64,000 nt of DNA from NCBI GenBank assembly GCA_947184155.2, contig CAMXCT020000114.1:617001-681000 (forward strand), read 5' to 3'. The position numbers and the translations under genes were made by a program. Below the pieces are notes generated by a model that saw only the letters and a list, made by a program, of their open reading frames with translations, ran no database searches and had not been told where the DNA came from. Positions 6,798 to 60,761 of the stretch are shown here, in pieces. Every line of letters begins with the position of its first letter. Position 1 is the stretch's first letter. The DNA is from Cladocopium goreaui. Its lineage: Eukaryota > Sar > Dinophyceae > Suessiales > Symbiodiniaceae.

Positions 6798-6917
6798 TTT
6801 TTTTTTCTTCTGGTTTGGCCGATGACGCTCTGAGGCTCGGTCCTTGCATGAGAATGAGCAGTTCTCGAAAACGTCTGCATGGACACAATTGGTCACATGC
6901 AGAAAGGCAAATCACAA
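6798..6917 (-). repeat. 5'-truncated retroposed 3' tail of an HH unit
   Basis: A 120-bp insertion ends on the minus strand in nine A residues (T9 at 6798-6806 as read here). It is flanked by an 18-bp target-site duplication, ccctttgcacatgatagg, at 6780-6797 and 6918-6935. Its sequence matches the last 120 bp of HH unit B (near 7800-7900, minus) and of C' (42590-42711, plus), including the shared tail caaggaccgagcc...tcggccaaac followed by poly(A). Removing it restores HH coding homology across the site (FPL next to GLIGMAQ, as in copy B). Confidence 0.85.
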
Positions 6918-6935: not shown

Positions 6936-7577
6936 ACTGATCGGTATGGCGCAAGTACTAGCAACCCTTGCCAATGGCGTCGAAGGCCTGCGAAGAGGCA
7001 TGGGACTCTTCTTTCACGACGACCGACAACAAGCCAACAACAGCCAAATGGAACGATGGTCACTTCCTCAAGCCTCCACGTGGACAGTTCCCCCCCTCGC
7101 CATCGCCAACCGATATTACGACGCCAACAGCGAACCAGTCCAGAACACACGATATCGACTCATCCTTACGAAGACATCAACCCTTAACTGGGTGACCAGA
7201 TGGGCATGCAATGCAGAACCTCAGCGCACTCGCCAGAGCTGGAACATGTCACTGGGTGCCAAGAACTCCGGGGCAACAATGGGAGTCAAATCCATACGCC
7301 CAACATGGTTCGAAGATGAAACAGTTGCCAAAACAGCCGCAGAGCCCATGCATGCACTACGCCTCATCATTAAAGAGGACGTGCTCCCTCTCAGGAATCA
7401 TCCTGAAGCTCTGGACCGCCGATGTATCACAGCCTCCGCCGCTAGGGAAATCAAAGGTCGAAACTCAAGGGCAGTAATAGGAGTCAAATCTACACGGCCA
7501 ACATTGTTCGAGGATGAGACAGCAGCTAAACAACCGCTAAACCCATGTATGGTCTACGTCTCATCATCAAAGAGGAT
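6936..7577 (+). pseudogene. HH copy A, region after the helicase, with an internal duplication
   Basis: Coding similarity to copy B resumes directly after the small insertion: IGMAQVL here, IGMAQTL in B, then PPLAIAN and TRYRLIL aligning with PPLAIAM and RRYRLVV. Two diverged copies of one block follow. The first covers about 7259-7415 and the second about 7440-7577, with a continuation at 7739-7788. Each reads IGVKS or MGVKS ... FEDETxAK ... LIIKEDVLPL. Copy C (minus, 30,770-30,614) has only one such block, so copy A gained a partial tandem duplication. The frame is broken several times. The block continues past the SINE and past unit B to 18076. Confidence 0.6.
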
Positions 7578-7719
7578 TTTTTTGTGGCCGGCGCCATTGT
7601 CTTTCGACTGGTCACCACACTTGAGGCTTACCTGCGGACCAGCGGGGAATCGAACCACCACCGGTAGCCTGTCCGCGTCGTCAAGAACGACGCTCTACCA
7701 ACTACTCCACAGGGACGCC
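7578..7719 (-). repeat. tRNA-derived SINE with 19-bp target-site duplication
   Basis: The insertion is flanked by tctcatcatcaaagaggat at 7559-7577 and 7720-7738. On the minus strand it opens with tRNA-like sequence: an A-box-like tagttggtagagcg, a stem cgtcg/cgacg closing a loop with CTT in the anticodon position, and a B-box-like ggttcgattcc. It ends in a short A run next to the duplication. The gap between anticodon stem and B box is too long, and the T stem too mismatched, for a working tRNA, so this is a tRNA(Lys)-like SINE. It would be transcribed by RNA polymerase III. Confidence 0.85.
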
Positions 7720-7738
7720 TCTCATCATCAAAGAGGAT

Positions 7739-7788
7739 GTTCTACCCCTCGAGAATCACCCCAGGTTCGACCCTAGAAGAAGTGGCAA
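7739..7788 (+). pseudogene. HH copy A, short piece between two insertions
   Basis: Fifty bases continue the copy A block after the SINE. The last 21 bases (7768-7788) are the left target-site duplication of unit B and recur at 18055-18075. Confidence 0.75.
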
Positions 7789-10515
7789 TTTTTTTTTTTC
7801 CCTCTGGTTTGGCCGATTCGCACTAGGCACGGTCCTTACAATTGCGTAAGCAGTGAAAAGCAGTAGTGTACAGGACTCGTGTGGTCCAAAAATCTCCGGC
7901 AAATCATCACGAGAAACAAACCAAACAACAAGAAACACAACCAAAAACGACCCGCAAATCCCCCAGCCAGATTTGCGTTTCGCCACAAAGCAAGACAGCG
8001 AAGCAACAAAGAAAGGGGCAGGGCCCAACAAGAACCAAAACAAAAAGCTCTCAGATTTGCCTTGGATACAGCGACCTTAGCCACTGTATCATCCTCAAAA
8101 ACATGCAAACTAATTAATTGCGGCGGTGCATGAAGTGTTGTACCTGATTGCCCAGACCGTCTTACCTGAGAACAGCAAAGGGAGTCCAATATTGTAGGCA
8201 GACTGATGTGTGGTTCGACAGAGGCCGCCTGTATGGACGATTTGTCAATAAATCAACTTCCGCATCTCTGCTGTTCACCCTGTATTGTTCAGCGTATGCC
8301 AGGCAGTCTGTTCCTGTCAGTATACACCACCGCAAGGGACTGTAATCTATTTCCCCCCCAACACGGGGAGGAGAGCACTGACAGCCTGCAACATGGTGTG
8401 AGCACTTGCAGAAACCGTCACGTGACTTGTGCCCAAGACCCTAAGGCCGTGGGTGAAAAAGTGGCTAAAGGCCTGACCGGCTCAGTACGGCCATGACAGA
8501 CAAATGATGTTTCGACCATAATATGGGCTCGTGAGCACTTCCAGTAAGATACTGCAGGTAGGTATACATAAGTCGCATTCGCATTGCTGTAAGACTTGTG
8601 CACCAAAACGATCAAAGATAAGGTGGTTCGGTGCGCCAGCACCAGATACTCAGACAGGAGTCACTAGGCGTCATCGTCCCAGCAAGTTCTGCGGAGAGGA
8701 CCGGATGCACAGGAAGGCATCTGTATATTCCAGACAAAGCCACTCTCCCATCGAGTGGGCCATAGGCCATAGCAATACAGAAAATCCGCACAACGAACCA
8801 TGTGGGCAGGCTTTGCTGCACTCGGGCGCTCCAGACTGAACTGCAGGAAGCACAACTGGACAGCGCCAGTAGAGCTCACTGCAGTGCAGCCTAGTCCATG
8901 GCTCTACCGGGAATCTACCGCCCCTCAAGAAAACACACAGGAAACAAAACACAGAGAGAGAAGGGCCCATCCCAATACAGCCAAGTAGGAAGCCACCAGA
9001 CAAATTCAACACAAGCAAACAAACAAACAAACGAATTCAAAAGGGGATCAACTCAACCAAAAAAGGGGGGGGACGGTGAGCAAAGGCTGTCCCACCTCGG
9101 ATAAATCCTTAGTCACTACCGGATAAGATCAATGTAACCATGGTGAAAAAATGGGTGACTGTGCAGAGCTGTAACCTCGGTATCCAGGCAACAGAGGAAG
9201 CAAAAACAACACACGCCCAAACAAAACGAAACCTGCCATCAAGGGGGAAGCAAAGAGGGGGGAGCGGCCAAAGAACAACCCATGCAAAACAACAAGCCAA
9301 CAGAGGAAACGAGGAGAGGAGCCAGGAGGCAGCAGAGGACAGAGAGAGAAAGGACACACACGCACTAGAAGGGGTACGAACGTGTCTTAGCGGAGTCCAA
9401 GAAGGGGACAAGGATCATACAATGATGAATACCTCAGTGAGGGAGCACACAGCACCCCAACAACACAGGAAACATGGTGTAGAGGGAAAGATCCCCACAC
9501 AGGGCCAAGGCCTTTGTTGCCATGAGACATGATGAGGAGGGGAAACAGTGCGCAACAAACACTCCACGCGCAGAGGCACGGCAACCAGGCCGTCGCCGGA
9601 AGCAACGATACCCAGAGGGAGGGACCAGTAAAACCTGGACCAAGGCGCCAACGAGGACCATCCGAGGGGGAGGGAGGGCTACGGCAGGCAGGGACCAAAA
9701 AAACCAAAACAGAATCAACAACCGAGGCACTACGCCTACTGTAGCTCTGCAAATTGCAACAACTATGGGTAAAACGACGAATTCACGTACCTTAACTAGT
9801 GGGAAGGGTGGGAGAGGGGTAGTCTCGTCAGTATTACGTCAGGGGAAAACGAAAACAGTTACATCATCACCTATGATTGTCAGGCACCGGGTACGAGAGC
9901 ATGCACTCATGCAGTGGGCTTCATGGTGTGAGGAGGCCTTAGTATAATCTAAGCTCTCGACTGGACAACACATTCTAAGCACTAGTGCAAGGGGAAAGCA
10001 TGCTGCTCGGCTTGTTATGCCTAGGCTATCACTCCCACATGAAAACACATGAGTGTGGATACTAGCTGTTGGAGGTCTGAATCAGTAGGGGCCAGGCATG
10101 TGGCAGAACATTTTTGACAAGTATGAATGAGGAAGAGCTGTGTCACCTACTGCATACCAGTGCACCTGTCACGTCTTTGGACAGACACACCAGTGTGGAA
10201 GTAGCCTCCCAGGCATGGGTCATGAGGAACCTGACAATTATAAATGAGGAAGAACTGTGTCCCCGACTGCATACCAATGCACCTGTCACGTCTTTGGACA
10301 GACACACCAGTATGGACAGTAACCTGAAGTAGAAATGACGAAAGACCAAATAGTGATTAATGATTAAAGTAAACTCCCACTTCCGTTGCTGATGAAACAA
10401 AAGCCAATGTTGTATGAGGGACAAAGCGGAGTGAAACAGAAATGAGACACGGGGGAAAGAAGAGACAAGGTGGACACAAATAGGGAAAAGGTGATGAGAA
10501 TAGGTGTTGGAGGGA
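7789..10515 (-). other. Non-coding 3' region of HH unit B
   Basis: On the minus strand this region is pyrimidine-rich, with no convincing frame. It is not random: it matches the sequence downstream of C' (40473-42711, plus) in several blocks. Clear matches are the ggggcggtaga block (about 8890-8920 against 41500), the tctcatggcaacaaag block (about 9520 against 40840), and the terminal taaggaccg...atcggccaaac plus poly(A). It may be a very long 3' UTR or include retained introns. Confidence 0.6.
10124..10320. repeat. 118-bp partial tandem duplication
   Basis: Two copies of a block of about 75 bp lie 118 bp apart, starting near 10124 and 10242. Both contain gcacctgtcacgtctttgga and the following acagacacaccagt. 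It sits just past the end of the unit B reading frame. Confidence 0.85.
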
Positions 10516-13500
10516 TCATGTCGTACCTCTCATGAAATGTTCCAAATGATGCTTCTTGTCCGATGTGATAGTGTCGTTCCATTCATTGGTGAGTGCAAAC
10601 GAAACTGGGTTAGCTGCTTGCTGAGCAATAGCTCGCTGATGTAGCGCTCGAATCGCCCGTTGATGTTCATCAAGATCTTCCGGAGGGACCCTCTTGCGGA
10701 CTTTCCTGTCTGGGAAGGTTCGTTCCCGCAAGTTGGCTTGCAAGGCATGTCCCGCTACATAAACTGCAGGTTGCTGGAATACAACACGCTCTGCAAATCT
10801 GTTGAGATGCACTGTCCATTCAGCAAACATATGGCTGTGCGACAGTTGATTCCTGAGTCGCGCTACCGTTTGATGCAGGCTCCCATTGGTATGCCACAAT
10901 CGCAACAGACTGTAGTTGGAAGGCCAATCAAGTGGGCACAGTGTGGCTGTTTCTTTCCATTTTTCAGGTGTAAGCCCTTCTTGAGAAGGTATGATCACTT
11001 CCAGAGTAGTGCGAGTCGGTCCCAGTGGTTGGAGACCTCGCATCATGCATGGTTCAACGAGCCCTGATGTGTATCCATGGATGAGCTCCTGGAAGCATCC
11101 AGCCATTTGAAAGTCTTCATCCAATCCAAGACGAAAACCAGGCATGGTTTTGGCAGCAAATTTTACTGCTTGGAGCAGCTGTTTTGCTCCTTCCACTGGA
11201 GTCTCGTCACAGGAACGTTTCGGGCATGCGATGTTGATTTCTTGTGGTTTCTGCGCATTCTCAGGGGCATTCTCAAGAAGTTTGGGAGCAATTTTGCTAG
11301 CCCAGCTAGCCGGGAACCATGCCAATAGGGCAGAGGCACCACTCGTAAGGTCCACTAGCCCAGTAGTGCGTCGATGCGGCCGATCAGTGACCAGGACTTT
11401 TACTGGGCCACTCGGCGCTCGACTCCGGTTCACCTCAGAGCTCTCAAGGGCCGAGCCGATGAGCTCAGACAGGATGGGCCGAAACCAGTACGTGGCATAC
11501 AGCAAGCATTCAGTTTCTGGAGTCACCATGGATTCAGCCAATCTCATCAACGAGCTCATCGCTTGGGCGAGCTTTTCTGCCAAACGAATTGTGAGAGCCC
11601 TTGCCGTCTGCAGGAGGACATCCTCCATCATGGCGCTTTGCCCACGCAACCACAGTTCACAGGCCACACTCAGCAAGATGCGCGAAAACTTTTCTTGGAT
11701 GGCAGTCAAAGACAACGTCAATCTCGCCTGTAGCCATAACTGTGGGAGAACTCCAAGGTTTTCGGGTATGCAAAACGGGTTTCCGTTAGGTTGGACATTA
11801 GTAATCAGGATTGCTAGCTTGTCAGCTGCACTCGCGATCTCATCTTCAGAGGGATCTTCAGCTGCATCAGGTATAGGTGGGCACCATGCAACTGTAGGGT
11901 CCTCTGGATCACTCTCGTCATCGGTAGAGGCCGCTTCCTCATCCGAGGAGGGGTCATTCACTGTGGCTCCTGCACCCTCGGGGCTTGCAAAATTCATGGA
12001 CCCTGGATCAATCTGGCGATCCAATGTGTCCAAAAGGTCCGGTTGCAACCGATGGGCATCGAAGTAGTGGATACCCGGTATTACGACAAGTTGCCGATCC
12101 TGTATACCCACGTGAAAGAAGACCTTGTGGCCTCGATGTCGATGAACAAGTGCTGGGGACCCATTATAGGCTGCACAGAGCCAGAGAGGAGATCTGTACC
12201 CATCAGCAGCATAACCATACAAGTATTCCCGATCAATCGAGCAGGGGAAAAACCCGCTGGTCGTCAGCACATGATCACGCGTGCGGGACTCTAACGCTGC
12301 AAGGACATCAGGGGGTAGCCGTAGCTTGTCTCTGCATGCCACAACCAACCGATATCGTCGCCACACTCGCGTGCCATTGGTGGTCACTATCATGGCAATA
12401 GCAAGGGGAGGTTTATCTTGGGAAATAAATGGATCCACTAATCCCCAGTCCAGTATGGCACTTTTGTCACTGGGGTATTTTGAAGGGCCATGGTACTGAA
12501 TGTCTCGGCCTTTCAGCGTGAAGTAGCCATAATGGTACACTCCTAGTGTCTGAGCCATGCCAATCATGCCTGCCATATCAAGAGGCGAAACAATATAGGT
12601 ATGTTCAATGGCTCTTGTGAGCGCTACAGTTGCTCTCCCATAACAGTCTTCGCGCTCATCGGCTGTTGCATCCCGACGTCCTCCACTTAGAAACCCAACG
12701 CCTGTTTGAACAATGACCGCAATGCGTGCTGTTGCCCCCGCGGCAGAGGAAGTGGTGGAAACTCTCAGCCCACCATACCACGCGGACTGGAAGCCATGTT
12801 GGAGCAGCAAGTTGTGCACCGCCGTACGATTGCATAGGACAAGCAGCTGCGAGGTCGCTCCCTGTTGCAAGTTGCGATAATAATTCTTCAGATAAGTGCA
12901 GAAGGCAACGACGTCCTCGACTGCAGCTCTTAGATCTTTAGGTGCCTTCCACAGTACTGTCCGGAAGCCCCCTTGCGCCACAGTGGACTCATGTGGCACG
13001 AAGTGTCCAATGTAGATGTGATTGGGCTCATGGAGGACTAACTCAGGATATCGAACTGCAACAATAGCTTGGTAAGTCAGCATTGAGACCCGTGAGCTGT
13101 TAGGGAGAATGATACCCCACCGGTGAGGACCACATAACCCTGCAGCCTCAAGGGTTGTGGTGCACTCAGGTACTCCAAATTCCTCTGGTGCTGTGGCAAT
13201 TAGCAGGACTGCTAGAGCTGCCGCAACCAGGCTGCTGTGTGCGTCCAGCTGGCACGATATTCGGCAGTGAAGCACACGCCCCAGGGCAGCAGGCAGCTCG
13301 TAGTCTTGCGGAGTGGATGTCCATGGGCCACTATGCGACTTATTTGCGAGTCGCAGCAAACTGAAGAGATCAGACTCCGGATCTTGGCTCGCATCAGGCC
13401 AAAGCTGCGCTATAAGTGCTGTCATTCGTGCCGGCGGAAGATAGTCTCCTGACTTATCAAGTGCTCGGAGCCCTAACGGCCGTTGCAACAGTTTGCGACG

Positions 13501-13857
13501 ATTGACAGCCGCTGCTCGGCCTTTTGACAATCCGCCTGGAGTTTGCCTATGATCACCAATGAAAACAGTAAGGGTTGGTTGTTGAATAGCAGCAAGAGCT
13601 GCAATTTCATGGTAGTTGCCATACTGTTGACTTTCATCCATGAAAGCAAGCCAGGTGCGAGAGATCCAATGGCCAAAGCTGGAGTAGCGCATCGCCATTT
13701 CCGCCGTGGCCGAGCCACCTGTTGCAATGAGTACATTCTTGTGAGCGATGATTCTATTGCGATCACTGCATCGGACGTCAATCTTGGAGGCATATGCTTC
13801 TCCTTTGCCTTCCTCCATGTCGTCCAATTAGCCTACCAAAGCTCTTGATTGTGGGGG
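10516..13857 (-). CDS. HH unit B: SF1 helicase C-terminal half with long C-terminal domain
   Basis: A 1,103-codon frame (13827-10516) is the longest intact piece of HH. Residues counted from 13827: Walker B MDESQQYG at 63-70, motif III GDHRQTPGG at 91-99, VAVRYPEL at 256-263, and motif VI VALTRA at 401-406, the usual SF1/UPF1-like order. An acidic linker (DEEAASTDDESDPEDP) follows, then about 450 residues of unknown fold ending in FPDRKVRKRVPP and NPVSFALTNEWND. That last segment recurs in C' at 39900-40258. Homology begins slightly upstream (KALADQLSDL), in another frame, right after repeat R1; a stop and shift near 13830 separate the two. An ATP-dependent nucleic-acid translocase is likely; substrate unknown. 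Confidence 0.75.
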
Positions 13858-14989
13858 GCGCGAGATCACTTAGTTGATCCGCAAGTGCTTTGGCCGCTTG
13901 TGTGCTTTGGCCTCCCGGTGCAGGGCCACGCCAAAAAGGCAAAAACCATGCAGAAGCACGGCCCTCCGCAAGCACCAGGCGCAGCCGGCGGCGCACACCT
14001 TTCCACACCGTGTGACCCAGGCCAACCTAAGGTAAGTGGATCCACACACCGGGTGGTAAGTAACCGTGACCATTCATTTCCCAAGTGGATCCACTCATCG
14101 AGTGACGTGGGAACCACAAAGGTACCCATTCATTTCACCCAAGATGATCACCACTCAAGGGACGTGGAACACGGACACCCACCACCACACAAGGTGTTCA
14201 CCACAATCACCGAAGGTGAAACCATCACACGATGCCCCCATTGGTTCCCGGACTCCTGCTCGTACAGGAGAAGAACGACCAAAAAAGGAGTGGTCGAACT
14301 AAGTCACCTTTTCAGTGACCCCAGTCCCAATGGAGCACAGCTCGAACTTGGATTAGGTCCTTACTGTGGCCAGACTGTACATTGAGCCCACTCTCCCCGA
14401 AGGTTGAGAGTGGACCGGTCGGTGACCCAGTCGTTAGCGATCCCATGCATCCCCGGAGGGATACACCTGTCTCACGACAGGACCCTAACACTGTTAGGGA
14501 GGAACCGACGGTCTTGTCCACCGTGAGCTTGGCTACCCACGATGAATTTTGACCGTTAGCCAACGGGTTGCCCCATTGACCCCTCCTCGAGACGAGTCAC
14601 CAAGTCTCTAAGAGGTTCACCGACCTTGCCTGTTCCCCCATGTCATCATAGGGTGTTGCTACCCTAGACACGAGGTAAGGTGAGACCCGTCGGTCCCGTA
14701 CCACGTGTGTACCGATCGGTCCGGGAGAACCCCGAGATACCGCACGATCACCCAAGGATGTGCGCAAACACAAACGAGGGTGTGACATGAGGAGCAACCC
14801 AACATGTCAACACACGCCGACTAGGGGGTACGAAGGTACCGTGTCCGTTCACGGTTCGTTAGGGACGGGGGCCTTTAGCAACTCCCCTGCGCTATAGAAA
14901 AGTTTAACGTCCCCCCGGACCCTCACGGGTCCACCTCCCCCTCTTGTAGCCATGCCTCTTGGCGGGCCGCAACCTCCGCCCGGGCTAGC
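13858..14989. repeat. Repeat R1: hairpin-rich repeat inside the helicase gene
   Basis: About 960 bp (13908-14876) match R2 at 17100-18053 in the same orientation; the last 110 bp, to 14989, are unique to R1. It carries many short hairpins, for example cctgtc...gacagg near 14467 and ccactctc...gagagtgg near 14390. It separates the helicase's TKENVA (14990) from KALADQLSDL, which are neighbours in copy A (KEN...SFADLL). On the minus strand a GT follows the KEN codons and an AG precedes KALADQ, so it could be an intron built from a repeat. It could equally be a plain insertion; no target-site duplication was found. Confidence 0.7.
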
Positions 14990-15832
14990 TACATTTTCTT
15001 TCGTATAGATGATGGCAACAAATTCCTTGAGTTCGCAGCTCAGGGCAATGAGCAAGACCGCAAGGGACCGCGTTTTGCCAGCACCAAAAACCCCTGCAAT
15101 ACATAAGTCAGATCTTCCTGTCAGAATGGCCAGTAACAATGCAATGGAAACTGTCAAGACATGTCCATCACCGTGGGCTGCTAAAGGAAGGAGATACTCA
15201 CAGTAGTAACTCATTGGAACATCCGACGGTGCACTGAAGAGCAGGAGCGGGGCACCATCAGTATGTAGGTGAACGACATGAAACCCAGCATAAGCCTCGT
15301 ATTGGTGGTGAGCTGCAAACGTGTTCCTGTTTGTCCTCGCTTCTTCTGCTGAGCAAGTTCCACACTGACCCAGGGCTGGAGATGCTGGAGCTGCCGTCCC
15401 ACATGGCGTCTGGTTGCGGAAGTACCATGTCCAGTGGAAAGATGAGGGTTCGTAATGAGAAACCACGCAGGAATTCCGCCAGTAGGTTGCGAACCAGCAA
15501 CCCGCCCTCATCGTGGGATCCTCCCGGTGTGGGAACTGCTTGTAGTCAGCTTCCGTATCAGGCTGACCATCCCGAATGTCCCGTCCACCAATGGGTATAT
15601 TCTGTAGCTCCGTGTTCCCTTCTCCAGCTGCTACTAACAAAGCACTTAGAGTCGTCTTGAGGTGCTCAGGAAGGTCAAAGCTAACCCATGAGAGTGCACG
15701 CAGCAATCCCTCGCACCGTACCCCATGTGGAATAACTTGCGGGGTGGTGATTTGTAGCCTCTGGATTTCGTGGAACTCCTTCGTCAAGGTCAATGAAGAG
15801 CAAGTGGCCATAGGAATGTTTGGCACGCCCAC
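14990..15832 (-). pseudogene. HH unit B: linker and helicase Walker A
   Basis: The frame from 15832 runs through a linker (LSWVSFDL here, ISWCSFEL in copy A) to Walker A, AGVFGAGKTRS, at about 15105-15069. It then has IIYTKENVA, aligning with ILFLCKEN of copy A. At 14990 the frame enters repeat R1, so the printed C-terminus beyond KENVA is repeat translation. Upstream it is cut at about 15815 by the inverted hydrolase block. Together with 13857-10516 it makes one helicase core. Confidence 0.7.
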
Positions 15833-16130
15833 TCCAGGTGGAGTGCCCCTCTATAAGAACAACCTGATAGTTAAATTCTGTCAGAGCAGGGACATTAACG
15901 TGTATGGTTTCTCGGCAGGGTCCTATACGGCTATAGCAGTCCACGAGATCCTGAGTGAATTTGCTGCGTTCCCTGGCCTCACTAAAGTTGCTGCGATTGC
16001 GACGCCGCCAGAGATGCTGCGACTTGCCACAGGCGAACGCCGAGTCACACTGGTGCACTGCCTGGAGGACCGGCTGTGTGTGTGGAGACCTGCTTCTCCC
16101 TCTGTTGCCCGCTGTAGTGACCAAGTGTGG
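15815..16130 (+). pseudogene. HH unit B: hydrolase-like block, inverted
   Basis: This piece reads on the plus strand, opposite to the rest of unit B. It contains the nucleophile elbow VYGFSAGSYTA, then KVAAIATPPEM, then VHCLEDRLCVW. Each aligns with copy A: IRGHSAGSYAG, AVAFPPNYM and HHAEERLCVW. The flanking minus-strand blocks (ending RPPHPTW at about 16200, restarting TLTKEFHE at about 15790) are the segments that flank it in copy A. So about 0.3 kb was inverted in place. The fold is inferred from G-x-S-x-G-S and the later acidic residue. Confidence 0.65.
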
Positions 16131-16141
16131 AAAACATGACT

Positions 16142-17074
16142 TCAGAAAAAGCTGTTTCCCTTGTGATGGTAACAACAGAAGATCTGCATAATTGCTGTTG
16201 ACCAGGTCGGATGTGGTGGCCTGGCGTGGGCTGGCCGGATGTTCGCGGCCTCAATGAGGCGGATCACTCTCGTGAGCAGCAGCTGTGGATCAGAGAACTG
16301 TTCAGGGAGGAAATCACGCCAAGCTGTCCATCCATCAGCAGTGGAAAGGAGCTGGTATACCGCATATTCGTGCACTGTTTTGGTAAGGTCCAATTGGGTG
16401 ATATGTTCTTCCCAAGAATCTGTCATCGCAAGCGATGGGCCATACACCTTTGTTTGCGCAAGATTTTGCAGGAAAATATCATATTTGTGTTCGCCACTAA
16501 GTAGGCCACCCTCTAATCCACTGCAATGCACTTCAAGGGGTCGGTCTTGCATTGGGGCGTCATCTTGCCAGACTTCTGCGAGGGAAAAGACCCAGGATGC
16601 CCGGTCAACCGAGCCCTTGAGTGCAGCAGGCATCGCAGCTTCAGGTTGTCTTCCTATGTAGTTTCGTTTGGACAATTCTCCAACATCTATAGTCTGCTTA
16701 TTGACAGTGATTTCCCACTTAGCCATTTCTCGGAAAGGTAACGGAAGACCAAACTTCAGGAGAGCTGCTTGCTGCAGCGACGTACATGAGAGTTCCGATT
16801 GTTCCTTTCGTTGCCACAATCCACACAGCAAGATCAGTTGAGCTTGGGAGAGAGGAGGAGGAGACACTTTGGCATGCAACCGCAGTCCAACCACTGGAAG
16901 GAAATTGTGATGTAGCCATTGGGGCTTCCATTCATGCGTGCCAAATAAAGCAGCAGCCAGCGGCAACCATCCGAATTGGGCGAGGTCAGCGAGACTGTTC
17001 GGCATTCTTTTCTTGGCACTGGTGCCAAATCCATGCAGGATAACAGGCCGCATGTAATGTGGCTCGATTGCCAT
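16142..17074 (-). CDS. HH unit B: N-terminal coding block
   Basis: The first ATG after repeat R2 is at 17074-17072 and the frame is open to 16142, about 310 codons; the frame is also open through part of R2, but that is repeat translation. The product has no motif I recognise. Its last part (LLLTRVIRLIEAANIRPAHARPPHP) aligns with the beginning of copy A (LRLFTKLIAAHPLTGICRPP), which places it directly upstream of the hydrolase-like domain. Residues after about 16200 run into the inversion breakpoint and are unlikely to be native. Confidence 0.5.
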   Translation of the reverse strand: MAIEPHYMRPVILHGFGTSAKKRMPNSLADLAQFGWLPLAAALFGTHEWKPQWLHHNFLPVVGLRLHAKVSPPPLSQAQLILLCGLWQRKEQSELSCTSLQQAALLKFGLPLPFREMAKWEITVNKQTIDVGELSKRNYIGRQPEAAMPAALKGSVDRASWVFSLAEVWQDDAPMQDRPLEVHCSGLEGGLLSGEHKYDIFLQNLAQTKVYGPSLAMTDSWEEHITQLDLTKTVHEYAVYQLLSTADGWTAWRDFLPEQFSDPQLLLTRVIRLIEAANIRPAHARPPHPTWSTAIMQIFCCYHHKGNSFF

Positions 17075-17097
17075 GGCTTGGTACCGCTTGGTACCTT

Positions 17098-18053
17098 TGG
17101 GCTCCCGGTGCAGGGCCACGCCAAAAAGGCGACAACCACGCAGAAGCATGGCCCCCCGCAAGCACCAGGCGCACCCTGGGGCGGTACCCTTTCCACACCA
17201 TGCGCCGATGGCCAACCCCGGACAGGTGGATCCACTCACCGGGTGACAAGGAGACTGTGACCATTCATTTCCCGAGGAGATCCACTCACCGAGTGACGTG
17301 GAAACCGTGCGGACACGGAAACCATTCATTTCACGCAAGATGATCACTCCTCAAGGGACGTGGAACACAGAAACCAAGTCACCACACAAGATGATCACCA
17401 CCACACCCAAGTAAGCCAACGCATGATGCCCCCATAGGTTCCCGGACTCCAGCTGCTACCGGAGAAGACGATCCAAGAAAGAAGTGGAAAGTCTTAGTCA
17501 CCTTTTCAGTGACTTCAGTCCCAATGGAGCACAGCTCGGACCTTAGAGCCAAAACAAGGTCCTCACTGTGGCCAGACTGTACATTGAGCCCACTCTCCCA
17601 AAAGGATGAGAGTGAACCGGTCGGTGACCCAGTCGTTAGCGATCCCATGTATCCCAGGGGGATACACCTGTCTTGCGACAGGACTCTAACACTGTTAGGG
17701 AGGAACCGACGGTCTTGTCCACCATGAGCTTGGCTACCCACGATGAATTTTGACCGTTAGCCAACGGGTTGCCCCATTGATCCCTCCTCGAGACGAGTCC
17801 CCAAGTCTCTAAGAGGTTCACCGACCTTGCCTGTTCCCCCGTGTCATCATTGGGTGTTGCTACCCTGGACACGAGGTAAGGTGAGACCCGTCGGTCCCGT
17901 ACCACGTGTGTACCGATCGGTCCGGGAGAACCCCGAGATACCGCACGATCACCCAAGGATGTGCGCAAACACAAACGAGGGTGTGACATGAGGAGCAACC
18001 CAACATGTCAACACACGCCGACTAGGGGATACCAAGGTACCGTGTCAATTCAC
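17098..18053. repeat. Repeat R2, second copy of R, at the 5' end of unit B
   Basis: R2 lies in the same orientation as R1 and is nearly identical over 17780-18045. The hairpins persist although loop and flank bases differ: gtctcacgacagg in R1 is gtcttgcgacagg in R2. Its outer end coincides with the unit B target-site duplication. Its inner end is followed by a direct repeat, ggtaccaagc twice, at about 17081-17100. Confidence 0.8.
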
Positions 18054-18075
18054 GCGACCCTAGAAGAAGTGGCAA

Positions 18076-18167: not shown

Positions 18168-19009
18168 TGTGAAAATTTGACATCTGTGGTGAGATGAATC
18201 CATTGGTCTTTTCTGCATTGGAAGAAGTGAATTTGATTTTCATCTTGATGATGAGCTCAACCGTGATGGTTGACATCGTATTTGCACGTTTCATGTTTTG
18301 CACGTTTTATTGGAGATGACGAAACCCAACAGCGATATACTTTTCGTCTTCTTTGAGTACTTTGATTGCACGGAGAACATTGTGAGGATTTGAATTTGTA
18401 TAGTGACATGGAAAATCAAACCATTTTCCATATACTTTGCTTTAGTTTTGTCGACAGAATCATCGCAGAAGTGCACGAAGGAATCGTGAGAAGATCGTAG
18501 AATTCATTTTTGTGACTTCGGAAGAAGGAACTTTGTTTGACATTGATTGGAGAAGAGTAGTGTGTTTTGTCTCTCAATGATGATAGCGAGAGCAACGTTC
18601 TGAAAGGCATTCAGAACTGGAGTTGCTAACAGATCTGAGGGAGACATCATGAATCATGTTTTGGTGCTTGAAATGTTTCAACGTTTTTCAAACACTCAAA
18701 CTTATTTAAACAAACAAACCATGTCTTGATGTAAAGACTTTTTGTGAGGACATGTGTTTTTGATCGCTTTTGTGAGAGTTAGCAGAAAGATGCTGACTGG
18801 CGACTCCGCATCATTTTGTGTCAAGGCGTGACACACCAACAAGAACCATAGCGACATGAGCAAGACACCTTGTTTCTGTGCTTGTGTGTTTGGTAAAAGT
18901 GGCTGAGCTCTGGGAGTGGTTGACTTGGTAGCGTGGACGGTTCTAGTGAGTTAAGGACGACGTCCTGGACGCTGACCCAAGGGTTTCGAAGGTTGCGGTA
19001 CCTTCTGCA
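18168..19009 (+). repeat. 5' LTR of the copia element
   Basis: 842 bp, TGTGAAAATTT...TTCTGCA. It differs from the 3' LTR by one visible substitution (cagcg/caacg), a TG indel near 18512, and a small divergent patch near 18867-18895. It should carry the promoter and polyadenylation signals. Confidence 0.95.
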
Positions 19010-19023
19010 TGGTAGCGGAGCTG
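19010..19023 (+). other. Primer binding site
   Basis: tggtagcggagctg starts at the first base after the 5' LTR. TGGTAGC(A/G)GAG is complementary to the 3' end of initiator tRNA-Met in many eukaryotes, the usual copia primer. The tRNA of this organism was not seen. Confidence 0.75.
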
Positions 19024-19047
19024 CCTGCTTGCTGCGCGTAAGTAGGA

Positions 19048-19587
19048 ATGGATTCAGGTAGTGCGAGCCAAGGTGTGCAAGGTTGTCCTAGTCCTGGTAT
19101 GGCTGAAAGAGGTGAAGGAAGTGGTACCGGAAATGGTGGTTGTAACGTTGGTGACGGATTGCCGCCAGTGCCAAGAACGCCTAGTCAGCAAGGTAGTGGA
19201 TCTGGGATGGATGGACAGACACCTGAAGTAAGTGACATGCCCCAGCAGCAGCCACAGCAACAACAAGCAAATGTGTCACAGAACGTACAGGGATTTGCGA
19301 GCACGACAAACCTGGATGCAAGTGGTCAGGTAGGTCCGGTGCAGGGATGTCAGCAAGGAAATATCCCCGGAATGCAGGGACTGGGACCAGCATGGTTTGG
19401 TGCGCAATGGATTCCCCAACAACAAACGTTTATGCAACAGAATTCGCAAGCGCGTGTGCCAAGTTATGGTTGTGCGAGTATGCCTGGTGGACCAAGGTCT
19501 GGAGATTTTCCAAACTTAGGAGTGAACCCAATGAGTTGCCAAGGAAACATGCCGAGTGGCCCGGTTGGAGCGAGCTTGGGAGGTTGA
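19048..19587 (+). CDS. gag: Gag N-terminal part of the copia element
   Basis: The first ATG after the primer site opens a 179-codon frame rich in Gly, Gln, Ser and Pro (a QQQPQQQQ run near residue 70). It ends in TGA at 19585-19587. The polyprotein frame overlaps it from 19347 in the -1 phase and carries the capsid-like part. A -1 shift somewhere in 19347-19587 would fuse the two. I see no clear X-XXY-YYZ slippery heptamer, so a single-base deletion or alternative initiation at 19347 is equally possible. Low-complexity N-terminal extensions are not typical of Ty1/copia Gag. Confidence 0.6.
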   Translation: MDSGSASQGVQGCPSPGMAERGEGSGTGNGGCNVGDGLPPVPRTPSQQGSGSGMDGQTPEVSDMPQQQPQQQQANVSQNVQGFASTTNLDASGQVGPVQGCQQGNIPGMQGLGPAWFGAQWIPQQQTFMQQNSQARVPSYGCASMPGGPRSGDFPNLGVNPMSCQGNMPSGPVGASLGG

Positions 19588-22500
19588 CGCCTCAGGCGGC
19601 GCAGATCCAAGAGGTCATGGCCATGTTAGGTAGCATGAGTGAGGGACAGCTACAGACAGTGCAGCAGCATATGCAAGATCGTTTTGTAACTATGCAACAG
19701 AGAAGAGGGGTTCCAGAAGTGTTTGGTGATGGTCTTGGTAGGGCAGCTGATTCGTCGTTTGTGACTCCGCAGCCATTTGATGTTTTGCCTGGTTTTGGTG
19801 TTCAACAATCAAATCATGGAAATTCACAGCAATTGGATGTCTTCGCCAAAAGCGAAAAATGGTTGACACCGGCACCAACACCAGTAGGAACTTGGAAGAC
19901 AAGAGAAGAAGAGGTGTTAGGTTGGGCTGGCTATTTGGATGAGTTGTCATCCTGGGCAGCTGGTGGAAGTTTAGAATTTTCTGTAGAAATCCAGCATAGT
20001 AGCCGTTGGCCCGGTCCCATCAGATGGAGTGCGCTCAGTGGAGCACAACAGGCAAGGTCTCGAAGGCTTATGTCCATCTTAAAAGCTGCGTTTCACGACA
20101 ACCCCAGGTGTGTGGCGTTGGTGAACGCCTTCAGTGAGGGTGTGGCATTACATGGAGTAGGATCTAGTGACAGAGTGGCAGTAGCAGTAAACCAACAAGC
20201 AAATGGGTTTGAACTGCTTAGGCAACTTACTCTTGAATTTTCTCTGAGGTCAAGATCCGAAGCGCTCTCACTAAGGACGCAGATTGCAGGGAAATCCTTT
20301 GTCCTGGCGGCGACACAGACATCGCCGAGTTCCTTGGTTAGTGATACTATCAGAAGAATTGATTATGAAGCTGCAAGGTTCTCAAGGTTGCTAGGAACTC
20401 TCCCTATGCAGGTGGACACCACAGGACTGAAGCTGGCAGATTCTGACATGCTAGTTGTTCTGTTGAAAAGTTTGCCTGAGACAGTGAAGAATTATGTTCT
20501 CCATCACAGCGGCGCAGACAATTACGAGTCCTACAGGAACGCTGCGATGCGTTGGGAAGAGCAACAACGCCTGTTTAGCGATTTTGGGACAGTAGGCCCC
20601 AGCAAGAGATTGAGTTCCCTGGAGGGGAGTGTAGAACATCATTCTCTTGATGCCGAACTCGTAGATGCAGTGGAAGGCAGGTGTGGAAAGTGTGGCAGTC
20701 GGAAACACACTGCCTCAGGTTGTACCGCAGACATGAGCAAGATTCGGTGTTTTAGATGCGGTAACATGGGACACATCAGCTTCAACTGCCCTGAGAGCAA
20801 AGAAGGTAAAGGTTCCAAAGGAAAGGGTGCTACCTTTAGAAGCAAAGGCAGTAGCAAAGGAAAAGGAAAGAAAGGCAAGTTGAATGAAGTTTCAGAGGAT
20901 TGGACCGACTGGACTGCAGAGAGTTGGGACGATGATGACTATTGGTGGCATGACCAATGGCCGGAGAGCTGTGATGGTCAATGGGGAGTTTCGCAGACAT
21001 GGTGGGACGATGGTTCTGGATGGTATTGCGACGGGTATGGGTATACCTGGCAACAGGGACCAGTCCAAAGTGCGGAACCGAGTGCAAGTCACGACAATAG
21101 GTCTGATGTCCAAAAGACTGGCAGTGTCGGCAGCATGATCATTAATCCTTTGTTGTTTGACATGACATGTGAAACCACTGGAGGTCTTAGGTTTGTGCAT
21201 GAGCATGAGGTTGCTGACATGGAAACCGAGAATAGGCTTGTGGTTGATTGCAAAGACTTTGAAAGTGAGTTGGCTGACACGGGTTGTGTGCTGGCAAAGA
21301 GTTGCGACAGCTGTACTCGTGAGTCAAAAGAAAGTGAACTGGCTGACACGGGTTGTGTGCTGGCAGAGAGCTGCGACAGCTGTACTCGTGAGTCGGAAGA
21401 AGAAGATGAACTGGCTGACATGGGTTGTGTGCTGGCAGAGAGCTGCGACAGCTGTACTCATGAGTCAGAAGAGAAAGATGAGCTGACTGACACAGGTTGT
21501 GTGCTGGCAAGAGGTTGCGACAGCTGTACTTGTGAGTCAGAAGTAGTGAGAAGTGAACTGGCTGACATGGGTTGTGTGCTGGCAAAAGGTTGCGACAGCT
21601 GTACTCATGAGTCAGAGGAAGTTGAAGCGGCTGACATGGGTTGTGTGCTGGCAAGAGGTTGCGACAGCTGTACTCATGAGCCATGGTTTTGTGGTTTGAA
21701 GTGTGGAGATGAAGTTGGACTTGGTGATAGTTCCAGCTTGGAGACACGTTTTGTTAATGACCCCAGCCGAGACTTGTGTGCCACTGTACCGATGAAAGTC
21801 GTTTTGGTGCGTGCACATGATTGGTTTGACGACCGCAGTGAGGTTTCAGTTGAACAGCAGATTGAACCTTACTTGAAGTTTTTGCGACCTTTGCTTTCAC
21901 AGGTCGCTGACAACACCGATGCTTCTTGGTGGCTTCTTGACTCTGGTGCATCCACAAGTGTTTTGGCTGAGTCGAACTTGTCAGCCTTCAGGTCAGTGCT
22001 GCAGGACAGTGAGGGGTTAGGTAGCTACAAAGCTGCCAATGGATCCTCAGTCAACATGTCAGGCACTGCTGAGATTGGAGTTCAGATGCACATGTCTGGC
22101 ACATCAGGTGATGATTGGTGTTGGAAGAAAGCACGTTTGAATGTTTTGGTGGGTTCCATCCGGCGCAACATTTTGTCAATTACTTCATTGGCAGATTCGG
22201 GATGGAGATTCACACAAGGTCCGAAAGGTTTTGATTTGTTCCATGAAAAGCTTGGAATGCATTGTCTTGATGTTGCTTATTTTGCCAATTGTCCTTGGGT
22301 TCGTTTGTATCCAGATGTTGGTAGTAGTAGTGCATACAGGTCTGACTTGACTGTGAGTAACGCTCATGACTTTTCTGTCGCAGCTGTGTCTGGAGGAGAC
22401 GACAGTGAACTGGCACGTCACCGGAGACAGGGACATATTCCATTCAATCCGAATTGCTTGGAGTGTGCCAAAGGTCGTTCTGTTTTTCAGCACAGAAGAG

Positions 22501-26597: not shown

Positions 26598-26933
26598 GTT
26601 TGCGTTTGAAAGGGGGCCCTGTGACAGAGAGAGAGACAGAAGTTGGTACCATGTTTCATTCAGTTTCATTTCTGTTTGCACGTTGTTTTCAAACAAACGT
26701 TGCCAAAGACAAACAGGAGATTTCACCATGTTTCATCTTGTGCAGAGTTTTGTTGCGCGATGCTGTAAGATGCAGTGTGTGTGCGCAGTGCAGAACAATC
26801 TGAAAGGCCACTGATCCTATCACGACTGTGATGGCGGTTCGACACTTCGTTTCACGTTCTAGGTTGATTGCTCCTAAGAGTTTAGCCACGGTCTAGTGCT
26901 TTTTCACTACCGGACGCGGTTTGGTTTGTAGCC
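26598..26933 (+). other. Spacer between pol and ORF3 of the copia element
   Basis: 336 bp without a convincing frame. A splice acceptor or internal promoter for ORF3 could lie here, but none can be assigned. Confidence 0.5.
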
Positions 26934-27515
26934 ATGGCCAAGTCTGGATGGACAGATGAGGATGAGAAGGCTTTGCTTGCTCTTCTTCAGAAGAAGTGGA
27001 ACAGTGGAAATTCAGGGTCAGGCTATGCAGCCGGATCCAGTGTTTTGACTCCTTTGGAGAGTCAAGGAGCAATGACAGACGGAAGCAAGCGACTTCGTGA
27101 GGCTCTGGATGATGATGAATTCGATGTGATTTCTTCGGCAGCTGAACCTTTGAATGCACAGTTGCCTGTCATGCCTATCCCAATCTTTCCTGGGATTGCC
27201 GACAAGGTCCTTGATCAGCTTACTGCTGATTTGGTGCCTGAAGGAATGAGTTTTCGAGATTGGAGCAGAACGAAGTTTGCGTTTGGAAAGTTTGCCAATG
27301 AGGGCAAGACATACCGAGAGGTATATGTCGATGAAGAGATGGCCGGATATTGCAAATGGAGTATGAATCACCTGGGAAACAAGAATACAAGTCCAATTGC
27401 AAAGGATTGGTATTCTTTTCTCTGCGCATGCAAGGTTGTGGAGGACTCTGGAAAGGTTGGAAAGCCAAAGGGTTGCTTCACTGGAACTTCAGTGCAGAGG
27501 CAGTTGGGTGATTAA
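26934..27515 (+). CDS. ORF3 of the copia element, env position
   Basis: A 193-codon frame starts at ATG 26934 in a gccATGg context, downstream of pol and upstream of the polypurine tract. It has no signal peptide or membrane segment, so it is not an envelope protein. The N-terminus has GWTDEDEKALLALLQKKW, a Myb/SANT-like helix. The middle is acidic. The C-terminal half has FRDWSRTKFAFGKF then GKTYREVYVD and GYCKWSMNH. That W-x-FGK(F/Y)...GK-x-(Y/L)-x-EV...Y-x-x-W pattern recalls DUF3820-type modules (inference). A DNA-binding accessory protein is plausible. The function is not established. Confidence 0.7.
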   Translation: MAKSGWTDEDEKALLALLQKKWNSGNSGSGYAAGSSVLTPLESQGAMTDGSKRLREALDDDEFDVISSAAEPLNAQLPVMPIPIFPGIADKVLDQLTADLVPEGMSFRDWSRTKFAFGKFANEGKTYREVYVDEEMAGYCKWSMNHLGNKNTSPIAKDWYSFLCACKVVEDSGKVGKPKGCFTGTSVQRQLGD

Positions 27516-27679
27516 GAATATCTTCATTGGTGCAAAGGCGAGGAAAGACTATGAGCTGGTTGTTCATTGGATGGTGGACAACGGGACAATTCGTACTATA
27601 TGTATTGACCTATCGAGCTTGGGCGATATGTGCTGAAGTCTGAATGGGTTACAGCTATACATGGAATGGAGTTCATCTC

Positions 27680-27688
27680 AAAAGGGGG
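27680..27688 (+). other. Polypurine tract
   Basis: aaaaggggg directly precedes the TG of the 3' LTR. This is where plus-strand DNA synthesis would be primed. Confidence 0.9.
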
Positions 27689-30296: not shown

Positions 30297-30400
30297 CTCC
30301 GTTCTGTTCAATGACCGTGCCTAGGAGAGGTACGTCTACCGTGGTTTTGAGGCTGGTATGCGGATGATTGCAGTGCCACGCTTTGCCACTTCTTCCAGGT

Positions 30401-30569
30401 TTTTTTGTGGCCCGAGCCCGTTGCCTTTCGGCGGGTCTACGGTACTTGAGACTTACTCGTCTACCACGTCACGATCGCGGCCCAGTACCCGGTGGGAACC
30501 GATCCGCGGCTAGTTGTCTATGCACGGTCCTGAGACGGGCATTATACCACTACGCGACGAGATCGCCTA
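30401..30569 (-). repeat. tRNA-derived SINE with 20-bp target-site duplication
   Basis: Flanked by ctttgccacttcttccaggt at 30381-30400 and 30570-30589. The minus strand has an A-box-like gtagtggtataatg and a B-box-like gatcggttccc, and ends ccacaaaaaaa, the same end as the SINE at 7578-7719. The tRNA-like head differs from that SINE's. Confidence 0.8.
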
Positions 30570-30588
30570 CTTTGCCACTTCTTCCAGG

Positions 30589-30613
30589 TCGGCCATACCA
30601 GATGGAAAAAAAA
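30589..30613 (+). repeat. 25-bp retroposed stub of the HH tail
   Basis: tcggccataccagatgg plus A8 is flanked by tgccacttcttccagg at 30573-30588 and 30614-30629. It matches the last bases of unit B (tcggccaaaccagaggg plus A) and C'. It is an extreme 5'-truncated copy. Confidence 0.75.
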
Positions 30614-32207: not shown

Positions 32208-32237
32208 AGATGGGGACGTAGTTAGATCTAGGTAGCA

Positions 32238-39897: not shown

Positions 39898-40472
39898 ACG
39901 ACCAAAAGTTTCCACAGTATGCTGCACAACTCAAGCAGCAAATACAGCATCGCCATATGTTGACTCATTGGGAAGTCAACCGCGCGAAGTTAGCGAGTAG
40001 AGTGCTCTTCCAACGACCAGCCCACTATTTGCCAGAAACGATCCTGAGGCAACATGTGCAAGAGCGGGTCTTCCCTGATAGAAAACTGCGTAGGAAAGCA
40101 CCAGATACCGACCTGGTTGCTTTTCAGACCAAATGCAATGAGTTACGGCTCCTTGCCGCAGAGACAGAAAGGGCTAACCCTGTCTCCTTTGCGATTGGGA
40201 ACAGCTGGAATGACACTCTCCGAACAGACAAGCAACACTACCTTGAATATACCACACGGAGTCAGACGCAGCGATTCTCCTTTTCTTCCTCCTCCTCCCA
40301 CTCTTTCGGTTCGTTTGCCTTTGTTGCTTTGCCTTCTTCATTTAGGTGCCACTTCCTTTTTGCTCCCACTGGCTGCGGTTGTGTGGAGGCCCTTTTGCCT
40401 AGGTGGGGTTCTGTTCCTCGTGGCCCCCCCTTTTTGCATGTCCTTTTTCTTGTGCGGTCCAAATTGGGTTAA
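39898..40472 (+). pseudogene. HH copy C', C-terminal end
   Basis: The frame resumes with DQKFPQYAAQ, then HMLTHWEVNR, ERVFPDRKLRRKAP and NPVSFAIGNSWNDTL. This aligns with the end of copy B (HMFAEWTVHLNR, ERTFPDRKVRKRVPP, NPVSFALTNEWNDTI). Where copy B has its stop, C' runs on into a Ser/Phe-rich pyrimidine tract until 40472. Either the stop was lost or the product ends by splicing. Confidence 0.7.
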
Positions 40473-42711
40473 GCTCTCTCTGCCGTCCTTTGTCCTTTGT
40501 GCGGTGTTTCGATCCCTTTCGGGCTTCGCCCTACTGGGCTCTTGGTGCTCCTGTCTGATGCTTCTGCCTGTGCGTCTTTTGGTGTTTCTCTGTCTCTGTT
40601 GTGCTCCTTTCTGTGTATGGTTGGGCCCCGCTGTTTCTGTCTTATTGTTTGGCTGTTGTTGGCTCCCCTCCCTGCCTGATGTTGCTTCCCCTCCCCCTGC
40701 GGGTGGTCCCGTGTGGCGCCCTGGCCCAGTTTTTACGCTGGTACCTCCCTCTAGGTATCTGGTTGCAGCTGTGACGGCTTAGTTGCCCTGCTTTACTGCT
40801 GGGAGTGTGGTTGTGCTTTGTCGTCCTTACTTCATTTTGTCTCATGGCAGCAAAGACTTCTGGCCCTGTGTGGGGTCTTTATTACCCTCTCCACCATGTT
40901 GCATGTGCTGTTAGGATGCTCAGTTTGACCACACTGAGGTATTCATCAGGATGATGATCCAGGTCCCCCATTGGTCTCCGCTAAGCTTCACCATTGCTAT
41001 TCTAATGCAGTAGGTTTGGCCATCTCCGCCCCTTTCCTCCTTTGCCATCCCGGCACCCCCTCTTTTTCTTTGGTTTTTGTGTTTTGTCCGGTTTGGTTGG
41101 TTTTTGCTCTTGGTGTGTTTTTTCGCGCGGTGTTGAATTCGGTGTGCCCTCCTATGCTTGAGTTACCCTCCCCTGCCCTCACTTAGGCGTGGGGCGTCTG
41201 GAGCTTAGATTGGATTGTGAGAGTTTGTCGATTTGTTTTGTTTGCTTTGTTGCTAACTAAGGTTTATGATTTGAGAGACACTGACATAGCAGTTTTCACT
41301 AAGGTTACTCAGGACGGCAAATTAGTTTTGGCGCCCCCCAGGGCCCGTGTCTTTGCTTTGCCCCTCTTTTTGACTTGAGCTATCCTTCTTGGTGGGGTTT
41401 TTCGTTTGATTGGTTTTGAATTCGTTCGTCTTTTCTAAGTCTTTTCGGGGTGTCCTTTGTCCGGTTGCTCTGCATGGTTGGTTGTATCTGTCCGAGAGGG
41501 GCGGTAGATAGCCGGCCGAAGCCATGGACCAGACTGTGCTGCAGTGAGTCTCACTGGAGCAATCCAGTGGTGCTCCCTGTAGGACAGCCTGGGGCGCCCG
41601 CGAGCAGCACAAGACTGCCTACATGGTTCGTCAGTTGGTGGACGGAATGTGGTGATTCTGCAGCCTGCCTATCCTGTGGGTGAGTAGCGTTACGGATTTG
41701 GATTCACTACAATCGTCTACTGTGCATACTGCAATGCACTGCAGGTCTTTCAGGGACGATGACATCCTGAAATGTCTTGAACAGTTCTGTGGTTCGCATG
41801 TTCAGCGAACCTGCAACAATGAGAGCAACTTTGCCGAAGATAGCACTGGTCTGGCGGAACTAGCGTGTACAGTCATGCCAACTTTCGGCTCTCTTTTGCT
41901 ATCCGAGTGTGGAGTCATCGCCTTGTCTGGCTTCATACTAACTGCACAACGACAATTTTATTGCATGTCCCTCATCTTTGCGAGCATTGCCTAGGAGCTT
42001 CGCTGGCTGAGATCAATCAATTTGCAGGTTTGCATTCATCCCCTATGAAACTAGGGTCTGCACTACATTTGCGATGGCAGTTTGGAAGTTTTTCACTGGC
42101 CTGCGAAGCTTCCCGTGCGCCATCACCGTCCGCCCCCCCTGCTGGGGAGGGTACCTGGCACTTTGACCACCACGGCTTCTTGCTCACGGTTGATATATGG
42201 TGACGACTCTGTCCATGGAGGCCTTCTGCACAAGCTGATCTGAGAGGACGCTGAGAGAGGCATAAGTTGTAGCCCCGTGTTCATGTACAGTTTGGCACAT
42301 CTATGCCTAGTAGTCAGGCAAGCTGGCTAGGCCTTCATGTCTGCTTGAATGTCATGGTTCTTAATTCATTTTTTCGCAAGTTTTTGAGAGTGATGCAGTG
42401 GTCAAGCCACTGTGTCCCTTGGCAAATCGATTTTGTGGGTGTTTTGTTTGGGCTCCGGTCCCTTTTTTTTGGTGTGTGTGTGTTTTGTTGTTGTTTGTTT
42501 TGCTGTTTCCTCTGGCGAAACGCAAGTCTGGCTGGGGGATTTGCGGGTCGTCGTGGTTTGGTGGTTTTGTGTGTTTTTTGTTGCTTTTGACTTCGATTTG
42601 CCTGCTCATTTGGACCAACTGTGTCCTTGTACAAACGTCTTTTCGACAGCTTATGCTCATGTAAGGACCGAGCCTTAGCGCGACATCGGCCAAACTCGAG
42701 GAAAAAAAAAA
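40473..42711 (+). other. Non-coding 3' region and poly(A) tail of HH copy C'
   Basis: T/C-rich sequence homologous to the region downstream of copy B (10515-7789, minus). It ends taaggaccgagcc...atcggccaaactcgagg followed by A10 at 42702-42711. No target-site duplication was found because the left end of C' is unclear. Confidence 0.6.
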
Positions 42712-60755: not shown

Positions 60756-60761
60756 GTATAA

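Follow-up and report, generated by a model that had tools for sequence, protein, structure and literature searches.

A 10,266-bp retroposed unit in Cladocopium goreaui, a probable truncated copy of a giant LINE-type retrotransposon with group I intron-like inserts

Long interspersed nuclear elements (LINEs) are about 4–8 kb in length, and RNase H is present in the I and ingi clades and their relatives. In bdelloid rotifers, the giant Penelope-like elements known as Terminons reach up to 40 kb, contain many extra open reading frames (ORFs) and occur mostly as 5′-truncated copies; they attach to telomeric repeats, are without endonuclease and carry a 3′ hammerhead motif (PMC6431247). Nuclear group I introns are described as confined to ribosomal DNA (rDNA) (PMC3679873, PMC8395846, PMC9223047), where their reverse splicing has been inferred (PMC1299323), and retroposition and introners have been described in dinoflagellates (PMC11453091). 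A stretch of 64,000 nucleotides (nt) of the dinoflagellate C. goreaui (GenBank assembly GCA_947184155.2, contig CAMXCT020000114.1, positions 617,001 to 681,000 of the forward strand), hereafter the window, was analysed. It contains a 10,266-bp unit which is very probably a 5′-truncated copy, flanked by target-site duplications (TSDs), of a giant LINE-type retrotransposon that belongs to this genome, has multiple ORFs and lacks long terminal repeats (LTRs), with reverse transcriptase (RT) expected in an upstream ORF of ~2027 amino acids (aa). Two copies, 88% identical, of a ~1.1-kb repeat named R lie within the unit.

Like RNase H-bearing LINEs, the element has poly(A), TSDs of 16–21 bp, 5′ truncation, tail-only copies and an ORF ending in RNase H; it differs in a summed length of at least ~26 kb, in having six or more ORFs downstream of the one with RNase H, in hairpins before ORFs and in an RT that is predicted only. 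With Terminons it shares giant size, many extra ORFs and mostly 5′-truncated copies, and it is set apart from them by TSDs and poly(A). The LINE-type assignment is based on poly(A), TSDs, differing 5′ stops, a common 3′ tail, a hydrolase-helicase (HH) ORF that is under selection, intact in many copies and preceded by at least five others, a covarying hairpin before most ORFs examined, and the collinear upstream ORF ending in RNase H.

The unit runs on the minus strand from its 5′ end at 18054, which falls within an R insert, to its poly(A) at 7789 (Table 1). Both TSD copies match exactly over 21 bp, CGACCCTAGAAGAAGTGGCAA, and a T11 run starting at 7789 of the forward strand represents the A11 tail. 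A first-pass annotation, made from the letters of the window alone, had read these features as a single retroposition event of 10.27 kb, in agreement with the exact TSDs directly bordering the poly(A) unit. Duplicated HH coding sequence, considered there as a possible source of the 21-bp match, does not apply, since the match directly adjoins the poly(A) with no base between, and the flanks joined across the unit continue into homologous sequence at ~30399–30317 (minus strand). This alignment is limited to the TSD and right flank, as the same target in the homologous site has received a separate 25-bp tail insertion and a tRNA-like short interspersed nuclear element (SINE). A CCTRGAAGAAGTGGCAA-type target was used by the 10-kb unit, by the tail of 25 bp and by the tRNA-like SINE with tail ..GGGCCACAAAAAAA, three insertions in all, at 7768–7788 and 30379–30629, in two homologous host copies and in both orientations; this shared target is a hotspot or site preference.

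No pair of LTRs or terminal inverted repeats was found at the ends of the 10-kb unit (repeat comparison; 20 of 34 direct families), and no Rep, PolB or integrase family among the element proteins scanned with Pfam. Rfam reported nothing at gathering score in the whole window, nothing at E ≤ 2 in 13700–18060 and unrelated weak matches only in four element stretches. PDB sequence searches yielded nothing useful, and among viral contigs searched for related loci four stretches fitted a pattern, with no relative found.

As a control, exact TSD candidates of at least 12 bp within 15 kb were sought at all poly(A) or poly(T) runs in the window that are 8 bases long or longer. Four of the 15 runs carry the tail, and an exact candidate was obtained at three of these (21, 18 and 16 bp), at none of the 11 tail-less runs and not at the fourth tail (42702–42711). 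The 18- and 16-bp duplications belong to tail-only insertions of 120 and 25 bp, both as first annotated; that the tail is repeatedly used as a retroposition template is borne out by these insertions and by many genome copies. Genome searches covered the 1.17-Gb assembly and only the best candidates were scored, so that counts are lower bounds. For the tail, at least 1113 first-look candidates were obtained, and the 40 scored were 98–100% identical. Further copies with poly(A) and duplications are present elsewhere in the genome, namely tail copies L011 (73 bp, 16-bp TSD) and L012 (1434 bp, 20-bp TSD) and long copies on contigs C1955 and C1923 (exact TSDs of 20 and 19 bp), bringing the copies with exact TSDs of 16–21 bp to seven. 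Insert lengths with a constant 3′ end were 25, 73, 120, 1434 and 10266 bp. At different points, 12 of 29 HH copies depart from the common upstream homology within 1.5 kb above the HH start; this fits 5′ truncation, and in some copies may reflect later insertion instead. Element copies inserted in other element copies or in R (L011, L020, L021) indicated self-nesting.

The minus-strand ORFs of the unit match one large protein family. For the 1103-aa ORF (10516–13827), 50 database relatives were listed (7999 candidates scored), the longer of which extend the protein upstream. A hydrolase-helicase had been annotated: the helicase was supported by Pfam AAA_19, which exceeded its cut-off in relative P0010 (26.2 versus 25.1 bits) and stayed under it in others, whereas the coding region proved not to be intact, being broken in this copy by a ~210-bp inverted piece, a ~176-aa deletion, frameshifts and two R inserts (tblastn). 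The putative hydrolase label derives from a GxSxG-like motif, for which Pfam gave no match. Elsewhere in the genome, the HH N-terminus had at least 3676 candidates, of which 50 were scored at 93–100%, and 13 of 51 listed matches lie in open frames of 2533–2562 aa. The HH ORF is under purifying selection across genomic copies: the ratio of nonsynonymous to synonymous substitution rates (dN/dS) was 0.12–0.23 by divergence class (351 pairs, 27 copies; 30 loci were fetched and L036, with a stop, L053 and L051 excluded), a lower-end estimate for HH only, since the copies were picked as best protein matches, which lowers dN. Retrocopies (processed pseudogenes) derived from a family of host genes and moved by ordinary LINEs would likewise bring poly(A), TSDs and the broken frames of this copy, and retrogenes are frequent in dinoflagellates (PMC6050394, PMC11453091); given a ~2560-aa ORF intact in many copies at such dN/dS values, several ORFs per unit and tail-only copies, this origin is very unlikely.

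HH is the 3′-most ORF of a larger unit. A region of ~4.5–5 kb or more upstream of HH is common to four of five copies, the fifth (C1923) stopping at ~2.35 kb, and comprises ORFs a (152 aa in C1164, 296 aa in C1135), b (258 aa), c (155 aa), d (409–421 aa) and e (393 aa, R-interrupted in C1135), the last with ankyrin repeats just under cut-off (Ank_2, 1.1e-5). C1164:94427 was rejected as element 5′ end, its sharp common start (40 of 693 candidates scored) having come from the query copy, with homology continuing in other copies. Flanks of C710, C747 and C2913 match further-upstream C1135 sequence at 96–99%. There, frames of 144 and 135 aa are followed by the 3′ end of an R insert and then by a ~415-aa frame with RNase H. 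The Pfam match to RNase H was 0.1 in the C1135 copy itself, 17.0–18.2 bits in three close relatives (P0058, P0060, P0062), under the cut-off of 21.6, and 41.7 and 42.3 bits in two remote relatives (P0104, P0113; 1.3e-10 and 8.4e-11), over it.

Searching the genome with relative P0060 yielded at least 966 candidates, and 26 of the 59 scored lie in open frames of 2015–2071 aa, defining an upstream ORF of ~2027 aa with a C-terminal RNase H domain, collinear with HH. Among the matches listed, spacings were 1807–1816 bp from RNase H to the mid region (all four pairs within 5 kb), 6.2–7.5 kb from the mid region to HH (14 pairs within 12 kb) and 7.1–9.7 kb from RNase H to HH (three pairs within 15 kb), and no other arrangement of the three was seen; on contig C1135 a single stretch contains the three. 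The RNase H ORF (~6.1 kb), spacing (~9.7 kb), HH (~7.7 kb) and 3′ untranslated region (3′UTR; ~2.5 kb) add up to ~26 kb, a lower bound from ORFs and spacings, with sequence further upstream outside the sum and the 5′ end beyond the stretch read.

The lack of RT reported in the first-pass annotation holds for this 5′-truncated copy; as a feature of the element it is not supported, the source unit carrying the collinear ~2027-aa ORF, and a wholly RT-less element was no longer preferred once this RNase H-bearing ORF, open in many copies, had been found upstream. That annotation had also left the choice between a trans-mobilised and an unrecognised autonomous retroelement. Copy number, intact ORFs and purifying selection speak for a retroelement that bears a helicase and had gone unrecognised, and against a passenger, and trans-mobilisation is no longer the leading reading because the source unit has a collinear upstream ORF ending in RNase H. 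An RT-less element of HH and its upstream ORFs, moved in trans by a LINE recognising the shared tail and merely neighbouring a separate RNase H ORF, would fit with the failure to find RT in any ORF read and with the large RT supply of the genome (4498 RVT_1 candidates). It is nevertheless unlikely in view of the collinear order and near-constant spacing of RNase H, mid region and HH among the matches listed, and of the flanks matching C1135 in three further copies.

A ~45-nt stem-loop, with a loop of typically C(C/T)(A/G)AAGACGTG, was found in sense before six of the eight ORFs examined (a, b, d, e, HH and the 144-aa frame of C1135), again between e and HH, and twice in the 3′UTR of the window unit; none was found before ORF c or the 135-aa frame. 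Over eight positions, 12 of the 17 pairs showed changes on both sides, and 91% of cells were paired as compared with 32–47% when slid; none of 500 shuffles reached the covariation score and two of 500 the number of pair types. In the alignment of the hairpin model (model R1, distinct from insert copy R1), the row labelled C1164:98124 is the C1135 version of that hairpin. With that row replaced by the C1164 sequence proper, 124 of 136 cells are paired, and double-sided changes occur in 12 of 17 pairs and in 33 cells, as against 36 cells with the mislabelled row (0, 4 and 0 of 2000 shuffles reached the corrected values); the structure was drawn from the tested sequences and is somewhat favoured by this. 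Further matches of the model lie in the downstream flanks of three copies (L006, L024, L058) and directly before the first ORF of a presumably DIRS-like element (window 32176–32222, E 1.5e-4), so that the hairpin may be a more general signal, beyond this element. Hairpins before ORFs, together with a helicase weakly like Viral_helicase1 (below the Pfam cut-off), are also what might be expected of an endogenous virus-like replicon that has several ORFs, poly(A) and a helicase and is copied by LINE machinery; the collinear RNase H ORF, purifying selection across genomic copies and the lack of Pfam matches to any RdRp or capsid family among the scanned proteins make such a replicon extremely unlikely.

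For the giant LINE-type retrotransposon, the following mechanism is proposed. The ~2027-aa ORF would bear RT and endonuclease in its N-terminal part, and a single poly(A) RNA of more than 26 kb would be copied by target-primed reverse transcription from the shared tail, most cDNAs ending early and leaving copies that range between 25 bp and about 19.6 kb. The SF1-type helicase polyprotein HH is likely to act in cis, unwinding or packaging the very long RNA, and the hairpins are likely to signal ORF starts when the polycistronic RNA is expressed.

Several points weigh against this reading, in addition to the bounded length and the lowered dN given above. Of the N-terminal ~1300 aa of the ~2027-aa ORF, 266 aa were read in frame with RNase H and upstream of it (L116); this piece, which may resemble the post-RT region of LINEs, matched no RT family, the only match being Bromodomain (0.0014, below cut-off). 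On visual inspection, the ~2027-aa ORF coincides with none of the 150 top-scoring RVT_1 matches among the 4498 candidates. No TSD was found for the second window copy (39898–42711) or for tail copies L014, L017 and L019, whose homology ends inside the fetched stretch. TSDs were also absent in six of eight long copies tested: C710, C747 and C2913 were tested at a 5′ position later shown not to be the element end, C1574 and C713 were plain failures, and C1164 was likewise without TSD.

For R, at least 440 candidates were obtained in the genome, of which 40 were scored at 96–100%. Comparison of C1135 with an uninterrupted copy revealed precise insertion with a duplication of at most one base; an LTR or element 5′UTR was ruled out by such precise, TSD-less positions inside several ORFs. 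Pairing of a guide with the 5′ exon (P1), seen in two copies alone, could be due to chance where the guide position can be chosen freely, being equalled by 252 of 1247 and by 463 of 1258 random exon ends, and therefore 20 further junctions were read. The resulting set comprised both ends of 20 of 39 other copies together with R2, C1135 and L036 (5′ side only), that is, 23 copies giving 19 distinct 5′ exon ends at ~16 different sites. In the 20 and R2, the 35 bases preceding the guide are identical and the 6–7-nt guide varies, matching its own exon; C1135 and L036 represent a subfamily with a different 5′ hairpin and the guide at the same place. Over 6 nt, guide and exon pair at 113 of 114 positions (complete at 18 of the 19 ends), compared with a mean of 90.5 after shuffling, none of 20,000 shuffles being as high as 113. 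The base preceding R is T at 17 exon ends and C at two, the opposite guide base always being G (terminal U.G at 17), and R ends in ..AAGCG in the 20 3′ junctions read. Of the 20 flanks, 12 match ORFs c, d, e or HH in sense, no. 20 does so weakly and seven had no match to available sequences; R1, R2, C1135 and L036 are likewise in sense, as is R wherever its host was identifiable.

A group I pairing order (P3-P4-P5-P6-P7-P3′-P7′, with a bulged A in P7) could be drawn by hand, P5a being mismatched. As judged from its sequence, R shows group I-like behaviour; membership is not claimed, because the core order hardly varies in the four copies compared and Rfam reports no group I intron. R resembles nuclear group I introns in the U before the insert, the G at its end, 5′-exon guide pairing with terminal U.G, precise duplication-free insertion and, as drawn by hand, a P3–P7-like order; it differs in lying within retrotransposon protein ORFs, not rDNA, and in the missing Rfam match. 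Repeated intron-like insertion into coding sequence is shared with dinoflagellate introners (PMC11453091), from which R differs in that the guide co-varies with the site and no canonical splice boundaries exist in a register backed by uninterrupted relatives. We lean slightly towards R being a nuclear group I (or group I-like) ribozyme outside rDNA that would reverse-splice into the giant retrotransposon RNA at guide-matching sites and then be reverse-transcribed and inserted with it, spreading within one genome as a parasite of the retroelement with guide and site co-evolving. Against this stand three observations: the 19 exon ends are not independent, three being one HH site in different copies and two another; a shift of the pairing by 4 left 89 of 114 positions paired, which is probably due to the ACAGAT common to many sites; and Rfam returned no group I intron for R at E ≤ 10, with unrelated weak matches only. 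Guide GTCTGT alone serves 10 exon ends.

Table 1. Coordinates of the retroposed unit, its parts and other features of the window
Feature	Coordinates	Strand	Basis
TSD, left copy	7768..7788	.	Identity with 18055-18075
5′-truncated copy of the putative giant retrotransposon, 10,266 bp	7789..18054	-	TSD, A11 tail, homology to genome copies
3′ tail ..GGACCG..AATCGGCCAAACCAGAGGG + A11, common to copies	7789..7845	-	Sequence comparison
3′UTR, ~2.7 kb; three stretches align in order with second copy 40669-42711	7800..10515	-	
Conserved hairpin, 3′UTR	10149..10200	-	Model R1, 54.0 bits; sequence used in building model
Conserved hairpin, 3′UTR	10266..10317	-	Model R1, 51.8 bits; sequence used in building model
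HH ORF, helicase and C-terminal part; open, 1103 aa from 13827	10516..13894	-	tblastn P0057 94%; AAA_19 in relative P0010
R2, intron-like insert of 1091 nt; 5′ exon TGTAGCT, with its end at 14986, is paired by guide GGCTACA	13895..14985	-	
HH ORF, N-terminal and middle part; ~176-aa deletion near 15209-15238, frameshifts	14986..17084	-	tblastn
Inverted HH ORF piece, hydrolase-like motif	15888..16097	+	P0057 512-581 on + strand
R1, second insert copy, 5′ side cut by unit end	17085..18054	-	88% to R2
TSD, right copy	18055..18075	.	Identity with 7768-7788
Tail-only insertion, 120 bp, 18-bp TSD CCCTTTGCACATGATAGG	6798..6917	-	Sequence comparison
Tail-only insertion, 25 bp, 16-bp TSD TGCCACTTCTTCCAGG; target nearly same as that of 10-kb unit	30589..30613	+	
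Second copy, strongly 5′-truncated: HH C-terminus, 3′UTR, tail; 5′ limit approximate	39898..42711	+	C-terminus and 3′UTR align in order with unit
tRNA-like SINE, TSD TCTCATCATCAAAGAGGAT	7577-7720	-	Read by eye
Presumed Copia-like LTR retrotransposon beside right flank of unit; LTR-like repeats 98% identical, 2416-aa ORF	18168-28523	+	
Presumed DIRS/Ngaro-like retrotransposon; split direct repeats (31980-32207 = 39282-39510; 38949-39281 = 39565-39897)	31980-39897	+	Repeat comparison

Elsewhere in the window, a second short-tail family, AACGACCTGGCGAGAGCCAT..GTTGGACGG + poly(A), is present in three copies (29863–29905, 30239–30278, 31470–31511); no exact TSD was found at the two of these tails with A/T runs of at least 8. 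ARAGORN called no tRNA at 7577–7720. A long 12-bp tandem repeat at 59973–60800 is open in both directions (frames of 234 and 251 aa).

In the literature searched, which left subscription journals mostly outside, no mention was found of this element or of group I introns in nuclear retrotransposons, and no description of a multi-ORF layout with a repeated covarying hairpin. The element would be exceptionally large for the LINE type, with such a layout and hairpin. If R is a group I intron, it would break the stated rule confining nuclear group I introns to rDNA and would provide a natural system of many insertions in which mobility by reverse splicing could be tested directly.

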